Shown here in pieces: positions 34,116 through 35,756 of a stretch of 64,000 nucleotides of DNA; positions within the stretch are counted from its first letter, which is position 1; every line of letters begins with the position of its first letter. The stretch spans positions 1 through 64,000 of the forward strand of contig JALHLU010000011.1 in assembly GCA_022844345.1 (NCBI GenBank). Direction: 5' to 3'. The notes beneath the pieces were generated by a model. That model did no database searches and was not told the origin of the DNA. It saw only the letters and a list, made by a program, of their open reading frames with translations. This DNA comes from Hyphomonadaceae bacterium. Lineage in GTDB: Bacteria; Pseudomonadota; Alphaproteobacteria; Caulobacterales; Hyphomonadaceae. A program made the translations under genes and the position numbers.

Positions 34116-35756
34116 ATGCACGATATCCGCGCCATCCGTGAAAATCCTGACGCCTACGCCGCCGCGCTGTCGCGCCGGCCGACGGTGGATGGGGCGTCGG
34201 AAGTGGCGGCGATCCTGGCGCTGGACGAAAAAGTGCGCGCGGCGATCCTGAAGAAGGAAGCGGCCGAGCAGGCGCGCAATGCGAAGTCGAAAGAGATCGG
34301 CAAGGCGAAGGCGTCGAAGGACGAGGCGCTTGCGGCGAGCCTGATGGCCGAGGTGGCGGCGGCGAAGGCGACGATCGAGACGGCGGGCGCGGAAGAGGCC
34401 GAGGCGACGAAGGCGCGGGATGATCTGCTCGCGCGCCTGCCCAACGTTCCGCATGAGAGCGTGCCCAAGGGGGCGGACGAGACGGGGAACAAGGAGGTGC
34501 GCCGGCATGGCGAGCCTCGGAAGTTCAACTACGCGCCGAAGGATCACGCCGACATTGGCGAGAAGCTGGGCATGATGGACTTCGAGGCGGCGGCGCGGAT
34601 GAGCGGCGCGCGGTTCGTTGTGTTGCGCGGGCAGCTGGCGCGCATGGAGCGCGCGCTGGCGGCTTTCATGCTGGACGTGCAGACGGGCGAGAATGGGTAT
34701 GTGGAGCATGCGACGCCGTTGATCGTGCGCGATCATGCTATGTTCGGAACCGGGCAACTGCCGAAGTTTGGAGAGGACCTTTTTTTCGGTGTTTCGGGCA
34801 CGGAACCCATTGTCCGCTTCGTCGATGATGAACGCGAAGAAACGTCAATCCTAGCTTATATGTATAGCGTCCTGGAATCGCTGCGTAACGTCGAAGACGA
34901 GAAACCGCTTAGCGCCGAGGCGATACTCGCCCGAATGAAGAGAGTTGATGTTGTCGGATATGCGCTCCCTGAGCGCGTTGGCGATGTGAGCTACATTGAA
35001 GAGTTCACCAAGCGGGCAGTTGCTCGACTGCTCACGTTTGCTGCACTGACGCCCACCGAGGCGATCAAAAAATTCGGAGAGGTTTCATCTCGTTTGGTTG
35101 AAGAAAATGCCCGTCGCGTTCAGGCTCGCATTTCTGAAGGTCGCTGGCTCATCCCCACCGCCGAAGTTTCCCTCACCAACATCTATCGCGAGCAGATCGT
35201 GGATGCGGCGAGCCTGCCTGCGCGCATGACCGCCGCGACGCCTTGCTTCCGGTCGGAGGCGGGGTCGGCGGGGCGCGACACGAAGGGCATGATCCGCATG
35301 CACCAGTTCATCAAGGTGGAGCTGGTGTCGATCACGAAGCCGGAAGACAGCGAAGCCGAGCATGAGCGCATGACGAAGTGCGCCGAGGGGATTCTGGAGC
35401 GGCTGGAGCTGCCTTATCGCACGGTGCTGCTGTGCACGGGCGATATGGGGTTTGGGGCGATCAAGACCTACGATCTCGAAGTGTGGCTGCCCTCGCAGAA
35501 CACGTATCGCGAGATTTCCTCGTGCTCGAACTGCGGGGATTTCCAGGCGCGCCGGATGGACGCGAAATTCCGCCGCGCGCCTGTGGGCGCCGAGAAGGCG
35601 GGCAAGCCGGAGTTCGTGCACACGCTCAACGGCTCTGGCCTTGCCGTGGGGCGGACGATGGTGGCGATCCTCGAGAATTATCAGCGCGAGGATGGCAAGG
35701 TGGACGTGCCGAAGGCGCTGGTGCCGTACATGGGCGGGCTTGAGGTGATTGGCTGA
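34116..35756 (+). CDS. serS: Serine--tRNA ligase with a large in-frame insertion
   Basis: A 546-residue class II synthetase; the usual length is about 425-430. It charges tRNA-Ser and tRNA-Sec with serine. Residues 1-110 are the tRNA-binding coiled coil ([18 protein letters not shown] start). The catalytic core follows: [12 protein letters not shown] ends at residue 223, then about 118 foreign residues (224-341), then [13 protein letters not shown] with the serine-binding TxE. Motif 2 ([21 protein letters not shown]) and motif 3 ([18 protein letters not shown]) are intact. Start at 34116 matches the family; the frame upstream runs into a repeat. No other serS is visible here, so this is probably the active enzyme. 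Confidence 0.95.
34785..35138 (+). other. In-frame insertion in serS, about 118 residues, lower GC
   Basis: The segment between GEDLF and [10 protein letters not shown] has no counterpart in ordinary SerRS. It is in frame, has no stop and reads as a folded, mostly helical domain: [40 protein letters not shown] and [20 protein letters not shown] count about 53% G+C over 351 bases against roughly 65% in flanking serS. It does not look like an intein: no Cys or Ser at the start, no His-Asn at the end, no endonuclease motif. Origin and function unknown. Confidence 0.85.

Follow-up and report, generated by a model that had tools for sequence, protein, structure and literature searches.

A highly variable, putatively exchanged domain at one loop of seryl-tRNA synthetase in Caulobacterales and other Alphaproteobacteria

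The seryl-tRNA synthetase (SerRS) of a Hyphomonadaceae bacterium carries an additional domain within its catalytic core, at a loop that its relatives fill as well. We analysed this gene, serS, in a window of 64,000 nucleotides (the whole stretch of DNA under study) and compared it with serS across the genus, the order and beyond. The segment is very probably one allele of a hypervariable, exchanged domain slot in SerRS and not the trace of a single acquisition, because relatives occupy the same loop with mostly unrelated sequences and lengths. In an essential, slow-evolving enzyme, a module is not expected to be swapped for one of unrelated sequence when the remainder of the gene still has 90-95% of its bases in common. 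A search of the open-access full-text literature at the level of titles, abstract openings and some passages returned no description of a hypervariable SerRS slot.

The inserted domain of the window's serS

The serS gene (34116..35756, + strand) translates into 546 residues. The TIGR00414 (serS) profile matches it in two stretches, 34116-34784 and 35103-35732, which share a single open frame, together reach 502.9 bits against a cut-off of 301.65 and mark it as a bacterial SerRS with intact class II motifs; its product also matches Pfam PF02403 and PF00587. The catalytic motifs are present in the translation and fall into conserved columns of a 38-row alignment, where L345, T348 and E350 are invariant, and the sequence-only reading had thus been right to describe a 546-residue SerRS with all motifs in place. 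The gene is the sole copy in its genome: the profile search for a second serS returned only one weak, sub-cut-off TIGR00414 match, on contig C4, which coincides with a thrS match.

The inserted domain spans 34785..35141 (+ strand; residues 224-342, 119 codons, 53% G+C, predicted four helices), and the profile built on its own insert family, A4, places it at 34785-35144. Directly after it the gene resumes with WLIPTAEV (35145..35168, + strand). This is the TxE segment of SerRS, which has a role in serine binding, and the proposed position of the insert in the adjoining loop was borne out. From TGQ to LIPTAE the window protein has 130 residues vs 15-20 in insert-free relatives, a net gain of about 114 residues over the ordinary loop. 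The large insert is therefore real, and the roughly 118 residues first attributed to it come down to this smaller net figure, since that count also includes the replaced loop. The G+C content of the LPK-to-LIP stretch is 0.528 and that of 800 bases flanking it 0.651 (a sliding profile was also run), and the G+C at third codon positions (GC3) is 0.52 vs 0.86 in the gene's own flanks. An in-frame, stop-free and foreign-looking segment of about 53% G+C before TAEV had been described from the letters alone, and these values agree with it. An assembly artefact at the loop is unlikely, because an insert occupies this loop in each of the 12 genus members, of 15 searched, from which the region was recovered.

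Structure prediction supports a separate domain, as had been suggested. Modelled within SerRS, the insert is predicted to be helical, with block-mean pLDDT values of 73-84 over residues 241-320 and below 50 at the junctions. Modelled alone from its single sequence with AlphaFold2, it reached a pLDDT of 82.8 and a pTM of 0.72 as four helices, the first and last of about 30 residues each; of the five models, two scored poorly (60 and 47). Foldseek returned no significant fold relative of the window insert.

Several types of genetic element were considered and rejected. Inteins begin with Cys or Ser and end with His-Asn followed by Cys, Ser or Thr; the segment from FFGVSG to ARISEGR before WLIPTAEV lacks such splicing ends, and neither the whole protein nor the insert gave a Pfam match to a Hint domain at E up to 1. 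A self-splicing intron or translational bypass was rejected on account of the open frames that span the loop: in 88 of 90 genomes the serS matches lie in frames of at least 466 codons that cross it without stops, and the other two lie at contig ends. A repeated in-frame selfish element of the Rickettsia palindromic type was rejected on the single A4 match in the organism's own genome, inside serS; by blastn, the window holds no comparable second copy of the insert, the best other match being 39 nt at 79%.

The surroundings of serS have features of their own. Two near-perfect palindromes of about 131 nt, 85% identical to each other, lie one on each side of the gene (33871-34001 and 35827-35957); the downstream copy folds as RNA at -107 kcal/mol with a z of -13, and among the loci compared the palindromes occur only in those of this genome. 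They may represent a MITE- or REP-like element, and they may have carried or framed serS. Between serS and pcm, at 36057-37080, lie two ORFs whose relatives are found near serS in several members of the genus; in other Alphaproteobacteria this place is presumably taken by surE.

Occurrence and variety of inserts among relatives

Of the 15 genomes of the genus searched, 12 had a usable serS region and all 12 have the loop filled, with 55-127 residues between LPK and LIP; the remaining three had no complete serS match. Across the order, a split TIGR00414 match, the mark of a large insert, was found in about 135 of 398 genomes, the majority having no split match; this count misses shorter inserts that the profile bridges (e.g., G005, G055 and G085) and includes at least one false case, G275 (locus L244), whose loop is ordinary and whose locus ends with its contig. 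A single horizontal insertion confined to this organism is accordingly not supported: every readable genus member and roughly one third of the order have the loop filled, for the most part with different sequences. Nor do close relatives share the same segment at normal G+C by vertical descent; what they carry at the same place is mostly different and low in G+C, and related inserts turn up in distant genera.

A second genus, g11, showed a split serS match in 33 genomes. It is very probably Brevundimonas, because the flanks of loci named as Brevundimonas reach 93.4% identity with those of g11 loci and because L048 and L176 share an insert. Among 63 sampled genomes from other orders of the class, eight had a split match and seven of these parsed as inserts; one (L266) is related to the g11 insert L177 (E 1e-5) and another (L273) marginally to L195 (E 0.001). 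In other classes of the phylum the profile matched 174 of 189 sampled genomes, one of which (G596, 71% complete) had two matches. Outside the class we observed one insert, L017, whose genome bears the title Xanthomonas sp. 3793, with 53 residues from LPK to LIP vs 16; its flanks are 92.9% identical to insert-free Xanthomonas, and close Xanthomonas loci have no insert. One genome with serS in two separate open frames (G092, a probable sequencing frameshift) and three loci that could not be parsed (L201, L214 and L269) were left out.

The insertions concentrate at this one place. When 182 SerRS sequences, a set enriched for inserts, were aligned to an insert-free reference, 167 insertions of at least 10 residues fell into two bins of this loop, and no other 10-residue bin held more than 6 of that size. 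Threonyl-tRNA synthetase (ThrRS, class II), which served as the only control synthetase, gave one unbroken match of 1665-1686 nt in all 30 split-serS genomes compared (11 of the genus, 19 of g11).

To describe the variety of the inserts we collected 141 distinct ones with at least 25 residues from LPK to LIP and sufficiently long flanks. BLASTP at E < 1e-3 grouped them into 105 families, 90 of them singletons, a count that is an upper bound because BLASTP on sequences of 19-120 residues separates distant relatives and because several unlinked inserts share a common end like sGeF..rRWLIP. Where two inserted genes had flanks of 90% identity or more, their inserts were unrelated in 87 of 89 pairs, although these close pairs are not independent and the 87 involve 33 genes. 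Sorted by flank identity, inserts of the same family were found in 1 of 64 pairs at 90-93%, in none of 24 at 93-95% and in the one pair above 95%. The window gene fits this pattern, its two nearest relatives in the set having unrelated inserts between flanks of 88.5% and 88.1% identity, and within its genus only two pairs share an insert (G005/G011 and G004/G010).

Related inserts also recur across distant hosts. The window's family, as detected by profile A4, is present in 4 of the 398 order genomes including its own, in three genera and two families, and only inside serS; a fifth match (G048, E 0.003) has an internal stop and no fitting ORF and was taken as chance. On a 191-row SerRS tree, the 15 multi-member families (51 members) required at least 27 changes, vs 14 if each were one clade. 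Diversity is not universal, since in genus g23 one related insert is common to 11 of the 13 genomes examined; members of this family are found in g31 and g57 as well. One row of alignment A1, L077, is most likely a mis-captured insert-free stretch; it stayed in A1 but was excluded from later counts. A match to phrog_16140 (E 3.8e-19, one member of 65) was rejected as a phage relative of an insert, as a whole-genome search identified that family as SerRS itself; L077 is most likely the member that matched, and a single TIGR00414 match is probably this row too.

Composition, exchange and constraint

The inserts differ in composition from the genes that hold them. G+C at codon positions 1, 2 and 3 is 0.62, 0.39 and 0.53 in inserts, against 0.68, 0.43 and 0.81 in flanks, and GC3 lies below that of the own flanks in 136 of 141 inserts (0.9645). 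The g23 family is an exception, with GC3 at flank level in the two members checked (L005 and L196). Cysteine is nearly missing from the 141 inserts, at 0.1% of residues (9/8988) vs 1.5% in flanks. Because our extraction yields only stop-free inserts, their open frame is no evidence by itself; the alternative frames are open in 13 and 9 (forward) and in 49, 30 and 18 (reverse) of the 141.

We then profiled mismatches in 30-nt bins, with all rows anchored on TGQLP and TAE. In the 87 pairs with unrelated inserts, upstream mismatch was 0.172 and 0.177 in the two bins beside TGQLP, 0.052-0.093 in the next five bins, and then 0.145, 0.120 and 0.053. Pairs of an inserted and an insert-free gene (n = 15) gave 0.153 and 0.231 beside TGQLP and then 0.053-0.124; insert-free pairs (n = 13) gave 0.095 and 0.105, then 0.049-0.151; and the two pairs with related inserts gave 0.033 and 0.017. 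No pair group showed a rise downstream of TAE, where the 87 pairs had 0.071 and 0.104. Raised divergence thus extends about 60 nt upstream into serS, and the composition changes over a similar tract: in the last 20 codons up to the end of the motif, GC3 is 0.735 vs 0.807 in the preceding 60 codons of the 141 inserted genes, and 0.806 vs 0.779 in 50 insert-free genes. In the window, the 20 serS codons ending at the P of TGQLP (34704..34763, + strand) have a GC3 of 0.70 vs 0.90 in the preceding 60, and their mismatch exceeds that of these 60 codons against six of the eight nearest relatives; we read them as a probable part of the exchanged tract. The divergent, GC3-poor tract suggests that inserts come with a piece of another serS, which in turn points to recombination between serS alleles. 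Exchange would then seem to proceed by homologous recombination, with donors that were often AT-richer.

Selection on the inserts was assessed in 11 related pairs, of which dS was measurable in seven and saturated in four; the estimates are rough, as the stretches are short. In all seven measurable pairs dN was below dS, with dN/dS from 0 to 0.53 (L196/L202 0, L093/L094 0.035, L167/L169 0.07, L019/L020 0.53) and low in six of them. Insert dS exceeded flank dS in seven of seven, and insert dN exceeded flank dN in 10 of 11 pairs, which indicates looser constraint than in the enzyme. Judged from these sequence comparisons, the inserted domains are under constraint, weaker than that on the enzyme, and they look older than the divergence of their host genes, matching an exchange of old alleles. 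The low dN/dS could alternatively reflect the mere need to fold and to spare SerRS.

On a rival reading that we consider unlikely, the hairpin would be a permissive loop that gathers and loses random, functionless foreign fragments, of which only those that are in frame, foldable and harmless survive. A precedent for tolerance is found in eukaryotes, as a passage of PMC10817482 describes Insertion II (G254-N261) of human and other higher-eukaryote cytosolic SerRS, near the active site, as of negligible importance for aminoacylation. The dN/dS of 0.53 for L019/L020 also suits random fragments, as do three related inserts (L131, L139 and L140) that are similar to part of DAO_C, a domain of glycerophosphate oxidases, at E 0.0048 to 0.059, under the cut-off, and are possibly a captured gene fragment. 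On this reading, though, the presence of inserts in 12 of 12 readable genus members and in 33 g11 genomes is hard to reconcile with deletion bias. The low dN/dS in six of seven measurable pairs and the recurrence of the window's family in distant genera only in serS also count against it, and the near absence of cysteine would be unexpected of random fragments.

Explanations for the diversity and comparison with known systems

A fixed hairpin of the catalytic core, before the TxE segment, carries small domains that vary between species and that most simply move by homologous recombination between serS alleles. We propose that having a domain would be favoured, and so would differing from the neighbours' domain. 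An antagonist would recognise or attack SerRS near the hairpin, and the domain would either shield the enzyme or itself be the recognised surface. We lean slightly towards such antagonistic coevolution, with shielding or decoying in an arms race, as the driver of the slot's diversity; each step from diversity to conflict is one that we infer, with a putative antagonist. The exchanged slot and antagonist-driven diversity together form the best explanation overall, which we hold with about even confidence. Serylation is probably unchanged, because the catalytic motifs are intact. Among the functions guessed earlier, a block against some SerRS-targeting protein of a phage, or a toxin, seems to fit the diversity best, and resistance to a serine-analogue drug or an altered substrate choice explains it poorly.

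The antagonist would tentatively be a phage or a phage-borne inhibitor, a part of the proposal that carries less weight and that we hold to be less likely than not; it is suggested by the giant phages of Brevundimonas, which encode a SerRS of their own. Giant phages frequently carry translation genes. Of 50,697 phage records, 25 have a SerRS match, all of them less than 60% identical to the window protein; seven are giant phages of Brevundimonas pondensis (ON529850, ON529851, ON529852, ON529853, ON529855, ON529857 and ON529860), and the unannotated records labelled as Listeria, Enterococcus and Staphylococcus phage may be host DNA. In the annotation of phage Gurke (321.5 kb) over 1-80,000, 80,581-97,843 and 100,001-321,510, SerRS is the only synthetase, four tRNA-Ser are found among many tRNAs and most proteins are hypothetical. 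The SerRS loop is short and free of an insert in both Gurke and Domovoi. Brevundimonas phages of at least 300 kb carry 24 or more tRNA genes according to PMC10070969, in whose main text the word "synthetase" is absent. That a phage should bring SerRS and no other synthetase into a genus where this enzyme is hypervariable suggests that SerRS is contested, and the link to phages is circumstantial. In the two phage regions examined, SerRS lies beside or near a GcrA-like regulator. The inserts themselves gave no match when 27 of the 105 family representatives were compared with the 50,697 phage records (tblastn, E 0.01), and the SerRS of Gurke had no confirmed match in IMG/VR. SerRS was further matched on 100 plasmid records; among the 25 matches listed, identity was 45-59% and many were on replicons of more than a million bases.

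Phages are also central to an abortive-infection reading, in which the domain is a bait for a phage protein and shuts SerRS off, and phages reply with an insert-free SerRS. Gurke, with its insert-free enzyme, four tRNA-Ser and no other synthetase annotated in the parts examined, would suit it. So would the occurrence of RNxxxH, the motif of HEPN ribonucleases, in four inserts (L006, L130, L181 and L237) vs 0.37 expected; none of 500 shuffles reached four. Yet these are just four of 141, the window insert lacks the motif (its relative L130 has it), the best HEPN-type Pfam match (DUF4145 in L130, E 0.0096) is under the cut-off, and any effector activity is putative; we regard a sensor as improbable. 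A lineage-specific regulator, in which each domain would bind a different partner or metabolite and tune SerRS, appears marginally less probable again: a folded helical domain in the predicted models and low dN/dS in most measurable pairs are consistent with it, but replacement by unrelated domains between genes with 90-95% identical flanks is not expected of a regulator. Immunity at the DNA level, in which a mobile-element nuclease would have its cutting site in the loop sequence of serS and would lose it through any insert, could account for the single precise location within a conserved gene, for the many fillers of unrelated sequence and for a divergent upstream junction tract, but it is very improbable, as synonymous codon changes would suffice and as it leaves protein-level constraint and domain-like folds unexplained.

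If diversity at an exchanged slot is indeed driven by an antagonist, Alphaproteobacteria would be fighting phages or competitors over SerRS, and about a hundred natural variants of the domain would already be at hand as a catalogue for finding that antagonist. The same would offer an explanation for SerRS in the giant Brevundimonas phages. In its boldest form, which is speculative, alphaproteobacterial SerRS would hold an allelic immunity locus, a catalytic-core socket of swappable, population-diverse domains that decide whether factors borne by a phage or competitor can seize or silence the synthesis of seryl-tRNA, and giant phages would answer with a socket-empty SerRS and tRNA-Ser. Even if this is wrong, the site is a natural example of a synthetase core in which a single loop can take up a wide range of domains while the motifs show no visible loss.

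Several known systems bear comparison with the slot. The SerRS of Brevundimonas giant phages is the same enzyme, and the genus of their hosts commonly has inserts; it differs in its ordinary short loop, in the two examined, and in its identity of less than 60% to the window protein. Eukaryotic Insertion II, which we take to sit at the same hairpin, likewise adds catalytic-domain residues near the active site, but it is eukaryote-specific and about 8 residues long, whereas the bacterial inserts have 19-120 residues and are mostly unrelated between close species. Signature indels of synthetases also occupy a fixed place in a housekeeping enzyme, and a passage of PMC3726837 reports one in Borrelia SerRS, a conserved 1-residue deletion within residues 231-264. 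Such indels are short and define clades, whereas the SerRS inserts vary among members of one genus, and related ones reappear in genera far apart.

Rickettsia palindromic elements are in-frame foreign segments that are tolerated in protein genes, as repeats of one element in many genes. The tolerance of foreign in-frame segments inside housekeeping genes is common to both; in contrast to one element in many genes, the window's insert family has one match in its own genome. Restriction specificity subunits and the immunity genes of polymorphic toxins are exchanged recognition cassettes, and we know of no such cassette inside an essential, otherwise conserved synthetase. The SerRS slot differs from these systems in sitting in an essential synthetase and in that its antagonist is putative, and it resembles them in its conserved frame, its hypervariable low-GC module and its apparent recombination in conserved flanks.
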